64,000 nucleotides of DNA from Olegusella massiliensis (lineage in GTDB: Bacteria; Actinomycetota; Coriobacteriia; Coriobacteriales; Atopobiaceae): the NCBI RefSeq assembly GCF_900078545.1, contig NZ_FLLS01000002.1:1683404-1747403 (forward strand). The letters run 5' to 3'. The notes beneath the pieces were generated by a model. That model worked only from the letters and a program-made list of their open reading frames with translations, ran no database searches and was not told the DNA's origin. Below, in pieces: positions 52,932-61,007 of the stretch (position 1 is the stretch's first letter; each line of letters starts with the position of its first letter). The position numbers and the translations under genes were made by a program.

Positions 52932-55559
52932 TTACACCTCCCGGAATTTTTGCTCTGCTTCCTTCAATTGCTCTAGCCCGTCTTCATCAAGAAGAACTTC
53001 ACGTGGCTTGGAGCCGTCAGGAGGACCTACTATACCTTTGGCAGCAAGCATATCCATAATGCGTCCTGCTCTAGCGTATCCCACCTTGAGCCGGCGTTGA
53101 AGTCCACTGGTCGAACCTAGCTGAGATTCCACGACAATTTGCGCTGCTTGCCATACCAAAGGATCATCGTCATCGTCACCTGTTGACGCACCATTACTAG
53201 GCTGACCAGGAACCACCTGAGTAAGAATTTCCTCATGGTAATCGGGCTCACCCTGATCACACCAATGCGCAACAACAGATTCAATCTCAGCGTCAGCAAC
53301 ATAGCAACCAAGAATGCGCCGTGTACGATGGCCTCGGAACTTAAAAAGCATGTCACCATTACCTAACAGGCGATCGGCACCCGTCTGGTCAAGAATGACA
53401 CGCGAGTCCATGCTCGAGGCAACTGAAAGCGCAATACGGGTCTCAATATTGGACTTAATAAGACCTGTTACCACATCAGCTGAAGGGCGCTGGGTAGCAA
53501 GCACAAGATGAATACCTGCTGCACGCGCAAGTTGAGCAATGCGAACAATAGATGCTTCAACGTCTTTGCCAGCAACCATCATAAGGTCAGAAAGCTCATC
53601 GATAATGATGACCATAAAGGGCATGGGCTCAGGTGGATTATCCATCTCGGAGAGCTTACCTGTGGTACACATCTCGTTATAAATGGTGATATTTCGAGCA
53701 CCTGCGCGTTCAAATACCTTGAGCCTACGCTCCATCTCAGATACTGCCCACTGAAGTGCACTCGCGGCTTGACGTGGCTCGGTTACCACGGGTACGTAGA
53801 GGTGTGGAAGACCGTTATAGCCCGAGAACTCTACACGCTTCGGGTCAACCAAAATGAGCCGAACCTGCTTGGGTGTATCACGCATCAAGATAGACATAAT
53901 AAGACTGTTAATCATTACAGACTTACCCGAACCCGTAGAACCTGCTACCAGTAAGTGTGGCATTTTGGCCAAGTCTGCAATAACTGCTTTGCCGCCTGCA
54001 TCGCGACCAACCGCAAATTCCAGTGGACCGCCCTTGGCATAAGGTAAAACATCACCGATGCAGACACTTTCGCGTTTCTTGTTGGGAATTTCGATACCAA
54101 CTCGCGAAGTGCCAGGAATGGGTGCAAAAATACGCACGGATTCAGCTGCTAAGGTGAGTGCAATATCATCCTCAAGATTAACAATTTTATTTACTCGCTC
54201 GCCCTCCCCCATTTCTACTTGAAATGTGGTAACAAGAGGACCAGAAACGTAGTCAACAACTTTGCTGCTAAGACCAAATTCGGACAGAGTTGACTGAAGT
54301 CTACGCATAGTTGAGGTTAGCTCAGCATCGGTTGATGCACTTTGGGCGCTATGAGGATTAGAGGAAAGCATCTCAAAGGACGGAAGTTTAAACTCCTGGG
54401 TGGAATCCCCGGGACGTGCATGAATAGATTGTGCTTGAGTACGTACGTTTACCGCCGAAGACGTAGGCGCTTTGGACTGCTTACGCTGAGCCTTGGGAGT
54501 CTTAAGGCTCTCAGTAGTTGTAGCTGATGCGTCTGCGTCATAGGGCAGTTCGTCCTGCTCAACAAACTGCGCACGTAAAAACTCAGGGATAGAAGGAGTT
54601 TTGTCTTTTTTGAACTTGGAATCAGACTTTCTAGAACGCGTCAAACGCTGGGTGAGCTGAGTTTGTTGTGTTGTCTCCTCTGCATCATCTTCAACAACAT
54701 TTACGGGTTCGGAACTTGCAATCGGTTTTTTATGACGACGCAACACCGTAGTTTTGCGCGCACCAATAAAACTAGTTGCTGGAGTGGTGGGATCAGACTC
54801 GGAAGCATCCGCCCATTCATCTTGGCCAGCCCAATCTTGCTCGATGACAGGCGAGGCGGCAGCACGCGCGTTTCGACGCTCAATGCGCTTCTGTGCGCGT
54901 TCTGCTTTGCGCTGCCGAAGCTCTTCAAAATGACGCTCACGAGCTTCTTGCAAACTACTACCCGCATCCGAAGCTTTTGCCTTGATATGCGCAATGGCAC
55001 CTGAGATAGAAAAGCCACAGACGACAAGACCAACAAGAATAATGCCGCTGAGCAATACCACACCTACGCCAAAGCCCACACTCTTCAGCAAGCCCCAAGC
55101 AATTGCCCCACCTACATAGCCACCACGGTTAAACAAAACTTCTTTTGACAAGACAAGGTCAGGATCTGCTTCGCCTCCAGGAAAGCTCAGTGACATAAGA
55201 CTCAAAATAGCCAGCAGCATCAACGAAAGGCCTAGGGCAACATGACCCGAGAGGGGCCCATGTCCATCAGCAAAAAATGTAAGAGCAAACAAAGCAATAC
55301 TGAGGGGACATAAAAGTGCACCCCTACCAAAGAGCCAACTTAAGAACTCTCCTGCCTTTTGGGTTACTGGGGCAGGTGTGGTCAGCAGCAAAGCTACAGC
55401 CATGGCTGCTGCAAGTGCAAGGAGCAAAACACCAATAATGTCGTTTGCCTCAGCGCTACGGGGTGTAGGAGCTTGCTTTGCCGCACGCCTCACACCCTGA
55501 CGTTGACGTCCTTGTCTGCCCCGCAACTCTGCTGCGTTTGATCTGCGTCTTGAGGGCAT
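52932..55559 (-). CDS. ftsK: DNA translocase FtsK/SpoIIIE
   Basis: This 875-aa septal motor pumps chromosome ends into daughter cells. Four or five N-terminal membrane helices (about 35-200) are followed by a charged linker and then the motor. The motor has the alpha-domain, Walker A VAGSTGSGKSVMINS, LILVDPKRVEFSGYNGLPHL, IIDELSDLMMVAGK and HLVLATQRPSADVVTG. The C-terminal gamma winged helix for KOPS reading is LQRRLKVGYARAGRIMDML. The start at 55559 has GGAGG upstream and overlaps the rnj stop by one base (TAATG). Confidence 0.95.
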   Translation of the reverse strand: MPSRRRSNAAELRGRQGRQRQGVRRAAKQAPTPRSAEANDIIGVLLLALAAAMAVALLLTTPAPVTQKAGEFLSWLFGRGALLCPLSIALFALTFFADGHGPLSGHVALGLSLMLLAILSLMSLSFPGGEADPDLVLSKEVLFNRGGYVGGAIAWGLLKSVGFGVGVVLLSGIILVGLVVCGFSISGAIAHIKAKASDAGSSLQEARERHFEELRQRKAERAQKRIERRNARAAASPVIEQDWAGQDEWADASESDPTTPATSFIGARKTTVLRRHKKPIASSEPVNVVEDDAEETTQQTQLTQRLTRSRKSDSKFKKDKTPSIPEFLRAQFVEQDELPYDADASATTTESLKTPKAQRKQSKAPTSSAVNVRTQAQSIHARPGDSTQEFKLPSFEMLSSNPHSAQSASTDAELTSTMRRLQSTLSEFGLSSKVVDYVSGPLVTTFQVEMGEGERVNKIVNLEDDIALTLAAESVRIFAPIPGTSRVGIEIPNKKRESVCIGDVLPYAKGGPLEFAVGRDAGGKAVIADLAKMPHLLVAGSTGSGKSVMINSLIMSILMRDTPKQVRLILVDPKRVEFSGYNGLPHLYVPVVTEPRQAASALQWAVSEMERRLKVFERAGARNITIYNEMCTTGKLSEMDNPPEPMPFMVIIIDELSDLMMVAGKDVEASIVRIAQLARAAGIHLVLATQRPSADVVTGLIKSNIETRIALSVASSMDSRVILDQTGADRLLGNGDMLFKFRGHRTRRILGCYVADAEIESVVAHWCDQGEPDYHEEILTQVVPGQPSNGASTGDDDDDPLVWQAAQIVVESQLGSTSGLQRRLKVGYARAGRIMDMLAAKGIVGPPDGSKPREVLLDEDGLEQLKEAEQKFREV

Positions 55560-57223
55560 TAGACCTCCATTACCACCGGAATCACCATAGGTCTTGTATG
55601 GGTACGCGACCAAATGAAGTTAGAAAGACTACCACGAACTGTACGGCGAATCTGGTCAACACTTGCGCCCTTCGATTGTGCCTGGCGCTCAACCGTCTGA
55701 CGCACGTTGGCTGTGGCATCACTCATGAGAGCCTCATCGGCCGCATATGCAACACCACGAGCAGAGAACTCAATATCGTTTGCCTTGTGACTCCTCTTTC
55801 CTACCGTCACAACCACAGTAATGATACCGTCCTCGCTGAGCTTTTGCCTGTCACGGAAGAGGATGGGGTCAACATTTGAAATGCTGAGGCCATCAACATA
55901 TATCAAACCGGATTCGACACCTTTACCCCAACGTAACTTGCCATCAACAACCTCAAGCGCATCTCCATTATTGGCAATAAAGATATGATCTTTGGGCATA
56001 CCCATTGCCATGGCAAGTTTTGCGTGCGCTGCAAGATGCACTGCTTCACCATGGACGGGTGCAAAGTAGTGTGGCTTGCAAAGCGCAAGCATAAGTTTGA
56101 GCTCTTCTTGGCGTGCATGACCTGAGACATGCACCGTTGCGTTAGTCTTGTCATAGATGGTGCAACCTATTTTGGTAAGGGCGTTGATAATACCCTGTAC
56201 GCTTTTCTCGTTACCAGGAACAGGCGTTGCAGAAATAATCACGGTGTCATTCGCAGTAATTTGTAGTGACTTATGATCACCTGTTGCCATACGACCAAGG
56301 GCGCTCATAGGCTCGCCTTGACTACCAGTACACATCACTACAACTTTGTCGTCAGGAATCTCTCCAATTTCAAACGCATCGATGAGATTTTTTTCGTCTA
56401 CATGTAAATACCCAAGTTCTCGAGCAACCCTCGTATTGGTCACCATGGACCGCCCTGTCACCACAACTTTGCGACCAACAGAGGTGGCGGCATCACAAAC
56501 CTGCTGGATTCTATGGATGTGGCTGGAGAAGCTCGCCACAAATACCCTGCCAGGAGCATTCTTAATGATATGGCGCAGGGTCGGACCAACCGTTGCTTCA
56601 CTTGGTGTAAAGCCTGGTTGGGTGGCGTTAGTAGAATCTGATAGCAACAAATCGATACCCATAGTGGCAAAGCGAGAGATAGCTTGGAAATTGGTTCGCA
56701 CGCCATCAATGGGCGTCTGATCGAGTTTAAAGTCACAGGTGTGCAACACTGAGCCTGCTGGTGTACGAATATATACACCAAGAGCACCTGGGATAGAGTG
56801 TGTTACCGAGAAGAAATCGATAGAGAAGTTGCCCAGATTGATGTGAGTACCATTTTGAACCTCGCGAAAACGAGGAGAGTTAATTTTGTGCTCAGCAAGC
56901 TTGCCTTCGACAATACCCAAGGTCATCTTGCTGGAATAAATTGGCACTTTGTGGTTGAGATCAGCCAAAAGATATGGCAAAGCGCCCGTATGGTCCTCGT
57001 GACCATGGGTAATAAGTATGCCTCGAAGCTTGTGCTCGTTTTCGAGCACATAGCTATAGTCTGGCAAAATCAAATCAATTCCAGGCTGGTTGTCTTCGGG
57101 AAACATTAAACCAGCATCGAGCAAAATCATGTCATCGCCATACTCAAAGGCAGTCATGTTCTTGCCAATACCGTCCAAGCCTCCCAAAGGAATAATCCTT
57201 AAGGGAGTTTGTTTTTTAGCCAT
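55559..57223 (-). CDS. rnj: Ribonuclease J
   Basis: This 554-aa enzyme of the metallo-beta-lactamase/beta-CASP family has 5'-3' exonuclease and endonuclease activity in mRNA decay and rRNA maturation. It shows LGGLDGIGKNMTAFEYGDD, the zinc motif THGHEDHTGALPYLL, LLSDSTNATQPGFTPSE, the beta-CASP part VVMCTGSQGEPMSAL and VHVSGHARQEELKLML with FAPVHGE. The start at 57223 was chosen by AAAGGA upstream and by the family start (LRIIPLGGL shortly after). It is co-directional with and coupled to ftsK. Confidence 0.95.
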   Translation of the reverse strand: MAKKQTPLRIIPLGGLDGIGKNMTAFEYGDDMILLDAGLMFPEDNQPGIDLILPDYSYVLENEHKLRGILITHGHEDHTGALPYLLADLNHKVPIYSSKMTLGIVEGKLAEHKINSPRFREVQNGTHINLGNFSIDFFSVTHSIPGALGVYIRTPAGSVLHTCDFKLDQTPIDGVRTNFQAISRFATMGIDLLLSDSTNATQPGFTPSEATVGPTLRHIIKNAPGRVFVASFSSHIHRIQQVCDAATSVGRKVVVTGRSMVTNTRVARELGYLHVDEKNLIDAFEIGEIPDDKVVVMCTGSQGEPMSALGRMATGDHKSLQITANDTVIISATPVPGNEKSVQGIINALTKIGCTIYDKTNATVHVSGHARQEELKLMLALCKPHYFAPVHGEAVHLAAHAKLAMAMGMPKDHIFIANNGDALEVVDGKLRWGKGVESGLIYVDGLSISNVDPILFRDRQKLSEDGIITVVVTVGKRSHKANDIEFSARGVAYAADEALMSDATANVRQTVERQAQSKGASVDQIRRTVRGSLSNFIWSRTHTRPMVIPVVMEV

Positions 57224-57416
57224 ATGTGTTCGTATTCCTTTCACATGTACCCAATAAAAATATATGCAGCTGCTTTAGCAGCTAAACTTTCTTGTTTATT
57301 AGTCATTGTAAGACTAGCAAGACTTTGATGCTTGCGCCGCTTGCACTCTCATACCAACCGCTCGCCGAGACTACACAAAAGTCGTAGTTTTATGGGATCT
57401 TTTTGGGTATGAAAGA

Positions 57417-57871
57417 AGTAACAACGTAGTCGAGAGTGTTACTGAGAACGGAGGTGGTTCCGATGTACAGAGCAGTGGAAGAGGCTTCTGAGCAGGATGA
57501 AATGGCGGCTTCCCATTTCGTTTCCCAGAACCACTCCTCCGATGTAACCTCTGCCTTTTAGTACACGCTAGATAGCGTACAGTTTGAGAGTAGTTACTCT
57601 TTAGCAGAGAAGCCAGCATTGTAGGAGTTGGTTCTTATCCTCCAGAAGCTTCTAGTTGGGCAGACGACCGAGATATCATTCTCATCTCGTCTGGCGTAGA
57701 AGCCTGTTATGCAGGCTGGTTTGTCACTAGTCCAGATTGCGGGATCCTAGAGACCCGAGCAGAAAGGTACCTGACAAACGTTGCTCTTCGCGTCAATTGC
57801 TTGAAAGCGATATGATTCCGATGGGCAAATAAAAGCACGGGCGCCCCGCATCCTCGGCGGGGCGCTTTTTT
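57417..57871 (+). ncRNA. Candidate structured non-coding RNA of about 450 nt with strong terminator
   Basis: No protein-coding gene is visible between rnj and the 160-aa gene, but base-pairing is dense. AGTAACA/TGTTACT is at 57417-57443. A long-range stem CGGAGGTGGTTC (57430-57441 region to 57450) pairs with GAACCAC-tc-CTCCG (about 57528-57541), enclosing GAAATGG/CCATTTC. Next comes a three-way junction closed by CTCTGC/GCAGAG (57549-57554 with 57604-57609), holding GTACaCGC/GCGTAC and AGAGTA/TACTCT. Further stems are CAGAC...GTCTG, AGCCTG/CAGGCT and CGGG/CCCG near 57740-57757. A strong plus-strand terminator ends it. RNase P, tmRNA, SRP and 6S signatures were not found. Strand is inferred from the terminator. 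Confidence 0.5.
57841..57871 (+). terminator. Strong plus-strand terminator without an upstream gene
   Basis: GCGCCCCGC (57841-57849) and GCGGGGCGC (57857-57865) form a perfect 9-bp GC stem followed by TTTTTT. There is no protein gene upstream on the plus strand, so it must terminate a non-coding transcript. Confidence 0.9.
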
Positions 57872-57989
57872 CTAGCTTTTTTTCTAAATGGTTCGTTTTT
57901 CCGCAACAGATGGTTTATTCTTCGAGCTTTTTAAAACACGACCTGCGGTTTTGCGTTTATTTACCTCGAAGCTTGAACCATCTATATTT

Positions 57990-58472
57990 TTACAGCTTGA
58001 CGTTATAAACCCTTTGTGCCATCGCAATAAAATCAGCCGCTTCTTCTTTTTGCAAAACCTTGATCATGAGTTGACCACCAGGTAATGGGCGATCAGTAAT
58101 AGACATCATGGCAGAGCCACCCTTAAATTTATCGCTCTTCCATACATATTGACCATTGGTAATCTTTCTTTTAATGGAGATAATATCACTCGGTTGTAAG
58201 AAAACCGGCTCATCATACTCTTCTAATTCATTGTCTACCGCAATGACAACCATTGAGCCATCATCCTTGTAGCCAACAATATAATTGGCATAGGTGTTAA
58301 TTCTGACAACAACGGCATTTGTAGTAGATAAGCCATACATATAAACGAGTTTATAAGCATCTCCATCTGGCACTAACGAATTAAATATCGAACGCATTTT
58401 TTGCTTATTAGCATTACTTTCTTCCGATGATGCTCCAGCCAATGTATCTTTTAGAGAATCAAATAAGCCCAT
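57990..58472 (-). CDS. Hypothetical 160-aa protein, possibly PH-like
   Basis: This small soluble protein begins MGLFDSLKDTLAGASSEESN and continues with a beta-rich stretch (YKLVYMYGLSTTNAVVVRINTYANYIVGYKDDGSMVVIAV, then IISIKRKITNG and SDKFKGGSAMMSITD). It closes with a helix (KEEAADFIAMAQRVYNV). Strand pattern plus terminal helix resemble bacterial PH-like domains, but no family was firmly recognised. The GGA-containing ribosome site AAAGGATAA precedes the ATG. AT content is higher than in its neighbours. The gaps on both sides (ncRNA region, and 58473-58689 with no feature) leave it as a single transcription unit. Confidence 0.65.
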   Translation of the reverse strand: MGLFDSLKDTLAGASSEESNANKQKMRSIFNSLVPDGDAYKLVYMYGLSTTNAVVVRINTYANYIVGYKDDGSMVVIAVDNELEEYDEPVFLQPSDIISIKRKITNGQYVWKSDKFKGGSAMMSITDRPLPGGQLMIKVLQKEEAADFIAMAQRVYNVKL

Positions 58473-58739: not shown

Positions 58740-61007
58740 TTAGCTCTCGTGGTGACGGCGAGGCTTACGAGGCTCGCTAGATTGATCTCCGCCATTATCG
58801 CCAGGGCGCCTATGAGAATTCATATTGGCGCTACGACCACGACGCTCACGGTTACCGCCAAAACGGCGCTCACGTCCAGGTTCACTGTTGTTCTTGTGAG
58901 TGGAGTTAGCAGGAGCCTCGGGCTTGTCAAGACGATCAAGAGAAATCTTGCCCTTTTCATCCACGTCAAGAACCATAACTTTGACCTCATCGCCCACAGC
59001 CAAAACGTCCTCAACTTTGTCAACATGACCTTTGGCGACACGGGAGACATGAAGCAGACCATCTTTACCAGGAAGTAGTTCAACAAAAGCGCCAAAAGGC
59101 TGAATGCCTACGACACGACCGTTGTACTCCTCGCCCACTTCAGGCACTTTAACGATAGCCTTAATACGCTCGGCAGCCTCTTCACCAGCAGCGGAAGTGC
59201 CTGCGATAAAGATGGAACCATCCTCTTGGATATCAATGGTCGCACCCGTCTCTTCTTGGATGCCACGGATGATCTTGCCACCAGAACCTATGACGTCGCG
59301 AATCTTGTCAGTAGGAATCTGCATGCTAATAATCTTAGGTGCAGATTCTTTGGTTTCCTCACGAACAGCGGGAACGGCATCGAGCATAGCATCAAGGATA
59401 TGCATACGGCCCTCATGAGACTGCTTAAAGGCCTGACGGAAAATCTCAGGAGTAAGACCCGTTGCCTTATTGTCCATCTGCATAGCAGTGATGCCCTTGG
59501 TGGTACCGCAAACCTTAAAGTCCATATCACCTAGGAAGTCCTCAACGCCTTGGATGTCAGTCAGGACAACAGTCTTGCCTTCTTCTTGGATGAGCCCCAT
59601 TGCAACACCAGAAACAGGACGCTTGATAGGTACACCAGCATCCATCAAAGCCAAAGTGGAACCACAGGTAGAAGCCATGGAAGAAGAACCATTGGACTCC
59701 ATAACCTCAGACACCACACGGATGGCATAGGGGAAGTCATCCTCAGAAGGAATAACGGGACGCAAAGCACGCTCTGCCAGAGCACCGTGACCAATCTCAC
59801 GACGCTTGGGTGAACCCATACGACCAGTCTCACCCGTGCAGAAGGGTGGGAAGTTGTAGTGATGCATATAGCGCTTGCCCTCAAGAGGATCAATGGTGTC
59901 AAGGCGCTGCCACTCATTGAGCATGCCTAAGGTGCAGATAGAAAGCACCTGGGTCTGGCCACGCTGGAAAAGACCTGAGCCATGTACCAAAGGCAGATAG
60001 TTGCCTTTTATAAATAGAGGACGAACCTCGTCGCAAACACGGCCATCAACACGCTCACCAGTCTCAACGACCATCTGACGCATGGCGTGTTTTTCGAGCT
60101 GCTTGAGCTCGCTGGTAATGGCTCGACTCCACTCGCTTTGCTCCTCGGGACTAAACTCGTCCTTGATTTGCTCCTTGAGCTCATTGACCTGAGTCTCGCG
60201 AATTTCCTTATCTGAACTCTTGATGGCGATCTTCATTTCATCCATATGTGCGTTAATGCGCTCTTGAACCTCAGGAATAGGTTCATCGAGCACATACTCA
60301 CGAACAGGGAACTCACCATTAAGCTCAACACATTTAGCAAAAAACTTGCGCTGCTCTTCACAGAAAGCAGCAATAGCCTGCTGACCAAAGGTCATTGCAG
60401 CAAGCATGTCCTCCTCAGAAATCTCGTTGGCTCCAGCCTCCAACATGGAAATATAGGTAGCAGAACCAGCAAGCTCAAGATCGAGGTCAGAATTGTCTTG
60501 CTCCTCAAATGTTGGGTTGACGATAAATTCACCCGTATCACGATTGCGACCGATACGAACACCTGCCAGAGGACCCTCAAAAGGTACACCACCAACAGTT
60601 AAGGCAGCACTAGCGCCCATGATAGAGATGGTATCAACGCTGTGAACTTGATCAGCCACCAAAGGCATTGCAACAACCTGAACCTCATTGCGGAAACCAT
60701 CAGGGAAAGATGGACGCAAAGGGCGGTCAATCATACGTGCAGTCAGAGTAGCCCTCTCACTAGGACGAGCCTCACGCTTGAGATAGCCACCAGGAATACG
60801 ACCTACTGCATACATCTTTTCAATAAAATCAACAGTCAGAGGGAAGAAGTCGTAGTCTTTACGCTCCTTCGAAACGACCACCGTCACATTAACGATGGAA
60901 TTTCCACAACGTACAAGGCACTGCCCTGTTGCCTGCTTGGCGAGCTCACCCGTCTCGAGGCTATAGTGCTTACCGTAGAGGTCAAACTCGTGTATAACCT
61001 TTGTCAT
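58740..61007 (-). CDS. pnp: Polyribonucleotide nucleotidyltransferase (PNPase)
   Basis: This 755-aa phosphorolytic 3'-5' exoribonuclease has two RNase PH domains (GRIPGGYLKREARPSERATLTARMIDRPLRP; RTEVLS-like QTQVLSICTLG with FPPFCTGETGRMGSPKRREIGHG). An alpha-helical middle, a KH domain (IRDVIGSGGKIIRGIQEETGA) and an S1 domain (GEEYNGRVVGIQPFGAFVELLPGKDGLLHVS) complete it. The C-terminus adds an Arg/Gly/Asn-rich tail (about 705-755), as in other actinobacteria, likely for RNA or protein binding. rpsO lies upstream with a hairpin between, the usual rpsO-pnp arrangement. Confidence 0.96.
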   Translation of the reverse strand: MTKVIHEFDLYGKHYSLETGELAKQATGQCLVRCGNSIVNVTVVVSKERKDYDFFPLTVDFIEKMYAVGRIPGGYLKREARPSERATLTARMIDRPLRPSFPDGFRNEVQVVAMPLVADQVHSVDTISIMGASAALTVGGVPFEGPLAGVRIGRNRDTGEFIVNPTFEEQDNSDLDLELAGSATYISMLEAGANEISEEDMLAAMTFGQQAIAAFCEEQRKFFAKCVELNGEFPVREYVLDEPIPEVQERINAHMDEMKIAIKSSDKEIRETQVNELKEQIKDEFSPEEQSEWSRAITSELKQLEKHAMRQMVVETGERVDGRVCDEVRPLFIKGNYLPLVHGSGLFQRGQTQVLSICTLGMLNEWQRLDTIDPLEGKRYMHHYNFPPFCTGETGRMGSPKRREIGHGALAERALRPVIPSEDDFPYAIRVVSEVMESNGSSSMASTCGSTLALMDAGVPIKRPVSGVAMGLIQEEGKTVVLTDIQGVEDFLGDMDFKVCGTTKGITAMQMDNKATGLTPEIFRQAFKQSHEGRMHILDAMLDAVPAVREETKESAPKIISMQIPTDKIRDVIGSGGKIIRGIQEETGATIDIQEDGSIFIAGTSAAGEEAAERIKAIVKVPEVGEEYNGRVVGIQPFGAFVELLPGKDGLLHVSRVAKGHVDKVEDVLAVGDEVKVMVLDVDEKGKISLDRLDKPEAPANSTHKNNSEPGRERRFGGNRERRGRSANMNSHRRPGDNGGDQSSEPRKPRRHHES

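Follow-up and report, generated by a model that had tools for sequence, protein, structure and literature searches.

The window analyzed here was a 64,000-nucleotide stretch of Olegusella massiliensis DNA. An intergenic stretch was located at 57245-57989. On one side it borders the RNase J gene (rnj, 55559-57244, minus strand, identified by its Pfam RNase_J domains), and on the other a minus-strand frame of 160 codons (57990-58472); pnp (58740-61007, minus strand) lies past this frame. Both rnj and pnp are RNA-decay genes, and both were on the strand opposite to the RNA described below. A Pfam search of the 160-codon frame gave no match. This frame was present in the genome under study (G000) and in G001, and tblastn found none in the G002, G003, and G004 loci. 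By eye, an inverted repeat was seen in 57880-57990 around AGATGGTTTATTCTTCGAG and CTCGAAGCTTGAACCATCT, and the G001 version was shorter and more perfect. It is possibly the terminator of the 160-codon frame.

An RNA of approximately 450 bases was placed in this intergenic stretch on the plus strand (57418-57871), with a terminator at its 3' end. The minimum free energy (MFE) of 57410-57875 on the plus strand was −175.6 kcal/mol, compared with −143.65 ± 5.51 kcal/mol for 100 shuffled sequences (z = −5.80), none of which folded as well. This bore out an earlier note on the same DNA, which had called the region highly structured. The minus strand of 57410-57875 also folded well (z = −4.80), so the strand was not fixed by folding energy alone. 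The start-region motif and the frame, together with a terminator on the same strand, were the grounds for assigning the plus strand. Five terminator-like sites were found in 57240-58000, where 0.8 ± 0.9 were expected, and the best plus-strand site was at 57839-57867. A promoter scan 5' of 57418 gave no sigma-70-like promoter. Judged from the sequence, the transcript probably starts near 57418.

The RNA began with a 5' hairpin, GUAACA...UGUUAC (57418-57442), and relatives had hairpins at the same place. Segment a (57450-57462) followed, a Shine-Dalgarno and start-region motif (GGAGGTGGTTCCG) recognized by pattern search and by model R2. It stood ahead of a putative coding frame of 32 codons (MYRAVEEASEQDEMAASHFVSQNHSSDVTSAF, stop TAG, 57463-57561). 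The MFE fold placed two elements within this frame: the 5' strand of the long-range stem P2 (57480-57498) and the hairpin GAUGAAAUGG...CCCAUUUCGUU (57496-57522), the latter also found in the genus alignment. The candidate segment b of this genome (AACCACTCCTCC, 57529-57540) was chosen by eye from its complementarity. Its possible partners are segment a or 57616-57635, and the latter pairing was the one in the MFE fold. Beyond the frame, the MFE fold contained the hairpins GUACACGC...GCGUAC (57561-57580), broken in one of four genus sequences, and AGAGUAGUUACUCU (57587-57600), present also in the genus alignment. These were followed by the 3' strand of an inner stem (57616-57635, partner 57527-57545) and the 3' strand of P2, or segment c (57637-57653). 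The hairpin CAGACG...CGUCUG (57661-57693) kept double changes in the genus alignment, and a 3' stem, GUUUGUC...GACAAAC, enclosed an inner CGGGA...CCCG hairpin (57719-57779). Segment d (57814-57826, GATTCCGATGGGC) was a second copy of the start-region motif, matched at E 2.1 by a model built without this genus. The intrinsic terminator (57839-57871) consisted of the GC-rich hairpin at 57839-57867 and a T run. P2 (57480-57498 with 57637-57653) was equaled by 9 of 500 shuffles. The perfect stems, the bulged long-range stem, the multi-branch interior, and the GC-rich terminator listed in the earlier note were all recovered by the fold and the terminator scan. Its description of the region as gene-free held for large genes only, as the frame with its ribosome site lies at 57463-57561.

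The RNA was compared with known classes. In an Rfam 15 scan of the whole window, only two tRNAs reached the gathering score, so that the covariance-model check proposed earlier returned no family in the stretch. With permissive filters, the best match in the RNA stretch scored 16.5 bits against a family threshold of 70, and it was on the minus strand. The same-genus loci L003 and L006 gave one sub-threshold match, inside RNase J, and the loci of ten further relatives gave one sub-threshold match of 23.6 bits, where 65.3 were required. The stretch had no match to SRP RNA or 6S RNA in the Rfam scans. In addition, the RNase P RNA and tmRNA of this genome were located elsewhere (G000:C2:71782-72151 and G000:C2:1055046-1055416). 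Known classes were ruled out by the Rfam scans and these two locations, in agreement with the earlier statement that signatures of housekeeping RNAs are not seen here. A likeness of GGUGGUACCG to the T-box consensus was dropped since the UGG is missing there in many members. A viral origin was set aside after the extended start-region pattern gave 0 matches in one viral-contig scan. A repeat search gave nothing at the settings applied.

The same RNA was found throughout the genus. BLAST aligned all 551 bases of the query to G001 with 92% identity and gave weak matches in G002 and G004, and model R1, which covers the 5' part of the RNA, matched five of five genus genomes, G003 included. In all five, the RNA was located between rnj and pnp. 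RNAalifold on four genus sequences gave 90 pairs; in 18 of these, one or more sequences had both bases exchanged and kept the pair. The strands of the long-range stem co-varied within the genus (GGCUUCUGGG/CCCAGAAGUC, AGACUUCUGA/UCAGGAGUCU, and GGCUGCUGAGGA/UUCUCAGCAGCC). The adjacency of rnj and pnp was also seen in Atopobiaceae-type loci (L027-L034, L036, L037, L039, L041, L093, L095, and L096), among which the RNA was found between the two genes in L027 and L028 only. The rnj-pnp placement of the RNA seems to be particular to this genus.

Relatives outside the genus were then reached by several searches. Weak R1 matches in G187 and G188 were intergenic stretches with the same start region. 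Of the 395 genomes of the order, 19 contained the start-region pattern GGRGGYGRTWCCRAYGGGY and none its reversed control; 17 of the 19 matches resembled such RNAs, and the other two were rubredoxin genes. The 3' motif GADWCCACCSTAATAG was found in 21 of 395 genomes (control 5). The start region lay upstream in 17 of these 21, and the matches in L117, L135, L136, and L137, which had no start region upstream, were set aside. The sequence-only model R2 was built from 25 start regions, the window's included. At E ≤ 1e-4, with strict filters that make the count a lower bound, it matched at least 96 of 395 genomes of the order. By clade, the window's family had at least 57 of its 140 genomes among them, a second family, that of Collinsella, at least 39 of 65, and the other 190 genomes of the order none. 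Counted among the 57 are the unread G096 and the two rubredoxin genomes, G097 and G098. Collinsella belongs to the second family: the RNase J of G188 was identical to that of Collinsella sp. AK_207A. The RNAs of relatives were mostly about 300 nt long. Seven of the nine non-genus R1 matches (G058, G067, G095, G258, G262, G301, and G332) were dropped because by eye they were coding or lacked the motif. A match in L054 at E 1e-4 was rejected on the same grounds, which meant that R1 E-values were loose, and a match in L012 was put down to chance.

Covariation was examined in alignment A7, which held 35 of 47 sequences hand-picked from about 80. The core fold comprised P2 (frame segment b with the distant segment c), P3 (the frame end paired with a strand about 75 bases further on), and the hairpins P4 and P5. 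With helices drawn on one of the 35 sequences and relatedness only partly controlled, pairing was kept in 86.8% of 940 cells, compared with 79.9% in shuffles (0/500 as high). Double changes were found in 17 of 27 pairs (11.3 ± 1.7 shuffled, 0/500), and doubly changed cells numbered 75 (29.1 ± 4.7 shuffled, 0/500). When partners were slid by 1-3 columns, pairing dropped to 32.7-50.0%. As ten groups were missing from A7 (g1, g6, g7, g9, g16, g21, g45, g46, g50, and g55), this result speaks for the remaining groups. The search for compensatory changes suggested in the earlier note thus found double changes above shuffles in the genus alignment and the 35 relatives. The long-range helix was also assessed singly in 18 representatives. 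In 13 of them, at most 47 of 500 shuffles matched it, and it was not outstanding in the other five (G024, G157, G187, G204, and G213). An RNAduplex version of the long-range test was too permissive; the later tests used 18 members against shuffles and 54 members in a cross-genus energy test.

The relatives thus share a conserved, covarying fold and a conserved start region, and their gene neighbours vary. The RNA is almost certainly a functional structured RNA, and a new structured RNA family of Coriobacteriales is well supported. It very probably has not been described as a family before. Among the papers listed by literature searches on noncoding, structured, or small RNA in Coriobacteria, there was nothing that we recognized as this RNA. 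In a word search of the main texts of PMC11109978 and PMC8632094, six genus words were absent. PMC8040213 mentions a Collinsella 51-base element upstream of L7/L12.

Next, the relation of the window RNA to this wider family was considered. R2 gave E 5.8e-11 for the window start-region motif, with the window itself contained in R2. A genus-free model was made from 20 of the 25 R2 rows and run on the window and 71 loci. At E ≤ 10 it gave five matches, none of them outside this RNA gene and its orthologs; three fell at segment a and two at segment d. The E-values of 0.0058 to 2.1 were singly weak, and the window d match was at 57813-57827. The core-fold model R3 holds no sequence of the window's genus. 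It gave near full-length matches in nine non-training sequences (L021, L116, L118, L123, L153, L159, L166, L169, and L171; 43 to 160 bits). In the window, R3 matched only the start region (57450-57497, 17.8 bits, E 2.6e-4), and its matches to g16, g21, g45, g46, and g50b members were similarly partial. The inner helices P3-P5 were not recovered in the window RNA by R3. This meant that the inner domain of the window RNA has either diverged beyond recognition or differs. It might be argued from this, and from the occurrence of the motif on rubredoxin genes, that the window-genus RNA is unrelated to the wider family and shares with it only a widespread start-region motif. We consider this improbable. 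The five genus-free matches, each weak, all fell in this gene and its orthologs, at both a and d. In addition, the long-range stem of the window RNA begins inside the frame, as in the family; its start is at +17 to +20 of the frame, compared with +23 to +30 in most relatives. Kinship with the wider family is highly probable, on the strength of the 5' motif, its repetition close to the 3' end, and the place at which the long-range stem begins.

The most conserved part of the family was a translation-start region followed by a short frame. For this reason the earlier proposal of a new non-coding RNA stood in part: the RNA was structured, covarying, and without an Rfam match, and "non-coding" became doubtful. 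Frames were counted in 80 distinct rows, or 78 after leaving out the rubredoxin loci L103 and L104, with near-identical members included. The start codon was ATG in 59, GTG in 13, and ACG in 6, so that 72 of 78 had ATG or GTG. The stop was TAG in 52, TAA in 16, and TGA in 10, and frames were 15-34 codons long. The ACG members (L003, L006, L168, L174, L222, and L225) kept the frame behind the altered start. The median number of codons to the first stop was 19 in frame 0, 5 in frame +1, and 22 in frame +2. The minimum was 15 in frame 0, which no member of the 78 undercut, versus 0 and 2 in the others. Since frame +2 was as open as frame 0, openness alone proves nothing. Among single-base codon changes in 25 independent pairs, 44 of 105 were silent in frame, and 49 of the 105 were at third positions; the two shifted frames gave 14 of 101 and 35 of 113 silent changes. 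These sequence comparisons suggested a weak in-frame coding signal. The predicted pairing energy with the 16S tail was −21.1 kcal/mol for segment a and −6.3 kcal/mol for segment d. Segment a had been considered as a perfect complement of the 16S tail; it had one base too many and was kept only as a strong ribosome site. In one member, L194 (G128), a one-base deletion relative to near relatives shifted the frame, with no loss of the start region or of the remainder of the RNA. This frameshifted member slightly lowered our estimate for translation; the frame is probably translated.

The peptides were alike within groups (MGTEEIAAFGPASGVPEVV, VNTEEIAGFGPADRATEAL, and MGTEDIARACGYGACETEVV) and widely different between them. 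P2 and P3 run through the same codons, which explains part of the likeness, and a Pfam search of four peptides gave no match. Two rival readings bear on the frame. According to the first, the RNA is purely non-coding and regulatory, the frame is a by-product, and motifs a and d bind a protein or complementary RNAs. The fold covaries through the frame, six of 78 members start with ACG and one is frameshifted, many members have the motif again as d with no start codon, and P2 and P3 account for some of the peptide likeness, all of which would fit. However, the spacing of the ribosome site, the 72 of 78 ATG or GTG starts, and an excess of silent changes that is confined to the proper frame argue against it, and the d copy was better than shuffles in only 16 of 79 members individually. 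We regard the purely non-coding reading as unlikely. According to the second, the RNA is a small-protein mRNA whose sole product is the 15-34 residue peptide, with a fold that merely stabilizes the message. The strong ribosome site, the coding signal, and the start region shared with the g49 rubredoxin genes agree with this. However, P3-P5 and the 3' part are conserved past the frame, the peptides differ widely between groups, four had no Pfam match, and ACG starts occur. A message of this kind is distinctly improbable.

Pairings that compete with P2 were also observed. RNAalifold itself proposed a pairing of the start region with segment b (a.b), which excludes P2. The a.b pairing was formed in 94.9% of 314 cells; shuffles gave 93.3%, with 5 of 500 as high, and slid partners at most 61.9%. 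Its covariation score was equaled by 0 of 500 shuffles, with double changes in only three of nine pairs. In the cross-genus energy test of 54 members, the member's own b.c pairing was in the best tenth in 30, and its own a.b pairing in 11, where about 5 were expected. This test supports a.b weakly. A b.d pairing was formed in 85.4% of cells, with covariation not above shuffles. A pairing of the 3' motif with the start-region GGUGG, sought by eye, was dropped because 17 of 30 start regions have C where U is needed.

The openness of the ribosome site was predicted with partition functions for 78 members. Median openness was 0.51 for pieces with 25 bases after the start, 0.21 for 60 bases, which brings in b, and 0.35 for 245 bases (390 for this genus), which brings in c as well. 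Between the 60-base piece and the longest one, the site opened in 34 members, closed in 8, and stayed alike in 36. The window RNA gave 0.24, 0.01, and 0.24 at the same three lengths. In the window, the counterpart of a.b, found by eye, would pair 57450-57459 with 57529-57540 and compete with 57616-57635. The predicted openness pattern is possibly that of a kinetic switch.

These results suggested a dual-function RNA, in which a short message would be gated by the folding of the RNA itself; we rate this reading at slightly below an even chance. The locus would be a free-standing gene, running from near 57418 to the terminator at 57871, for a structured and probably dual-function Coriobacteriales RNA. 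A very strong ribosome site (a) would start the frame of 15-34 codons, and segment b would act as a folding switch. Pairing of a with b would hide the ribosome site and the start codon, and pairing of b with c, the long-range stem, would free the start and close a multi-helix domain. Ribosomes entering the frame would melt both. The RNA might switch between two states, one open and translated, the other folded, and in the latter the domain and the second start-like motif d would do a separate, probably regulatory, job, perhaps in trans. The self-gating switch, as modeled, is a tentative proposal, and the window RNA may share it. Its extension to a self-gated coding-RNA family, in which the coding strand hides its own start or closes the domain, d competes, and ribosome occupancy picks the fold, is doubtful. 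Several results count against the dual-function reading: the weak a.b test, the ACG starts, the L194 frameshift, the openness of frame +2, the five of 18 members with an unremarkable P2, the R3 match limited to the start region, and b.d without covariation.

The exclusive pairings a.b and b.c resemble leader switches, so that a cis-acting leader or attenuator of a neighboring gene was also considered. In a simple scan of 57 non-independent loci, the first frame of 100 or more codons downstream of the RNA was on the same strand in 20, on the opposite strand in 34, and unclear in 3. The 20 same-strand loci would suit a leader. A conserved same-strand downstream gene was not found across the 57 loci, a terminator follows the RNA, and neighbors differ between genera. 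In the window, a leader of rnj or pnp was rejected because both genes are on the other strand. A cis-acting role is very unlikely.

The dual-function reading was compared with known systems. SgrS/SgrT and RNAIII are dual-function small RNAs, and we know of no sequence relation between dual-function small RNAs and this one. With dual-function small RNAs, VcdRP (PMC8672173) among them, the window RNA would share a probably independent transcript with a terminator, strong structure, and a short frame. Unlike in these, the putative coding segment itself is here a strand of the conserved long-range stem. Translation-attenuation leaders have a short frame and mutually exclusive pairings around the ribosome site, as predicted here. 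In contrast to them, this RNA has no conserved downstream gene, and what would be gated is the short frame itself. OLE, GOLLD, ROOL, and raiA are large bacterial RNAs of unknown function, and the window RNA recalls them in size and complexity. However, there was no Rfam match here, and relatives were shorter, as given above. Collinsella-1 (RF01700), listed as a probable RNA in PMC2864571, is likewise a candidate RNA of this host group, and it too comes from the human gut. It differs in that neither the window RNA nor the corresponding stretches at 12 loci of relatives gave an Rfam match. The present family is backed by covariation, has no entry in Rfam 15, and occurs in bacteria common in the gut and mouth, namely relatives of Collinsella, Olsenella, and Atopobium. 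In a clade for which we found little RNA work, it provides a gene of regulator size for study, and it makes a testable question of whether a structured RNA uses its own coding region as a fold switch.

In the rubredoxin genes of genus g49 (L103, 1501-1660, and L104; G097 and G098), the same start region and first codons (GGAGGTGGTTCCGATGGGC...) were seen, and in L103 a TGAGTTCCACCGTG stretch 3' of the stop resembled motif d. An ordinary gene may share this element or be its source. Two copies of the RNA were present in several genomes, for example in genus g50 and in G113, G116, and G117. Paired copies were L105 and L206 in G130, and L207 and L208-L211 in G113, G116, and G117. In genus g50, the second copy was of a different subtype.
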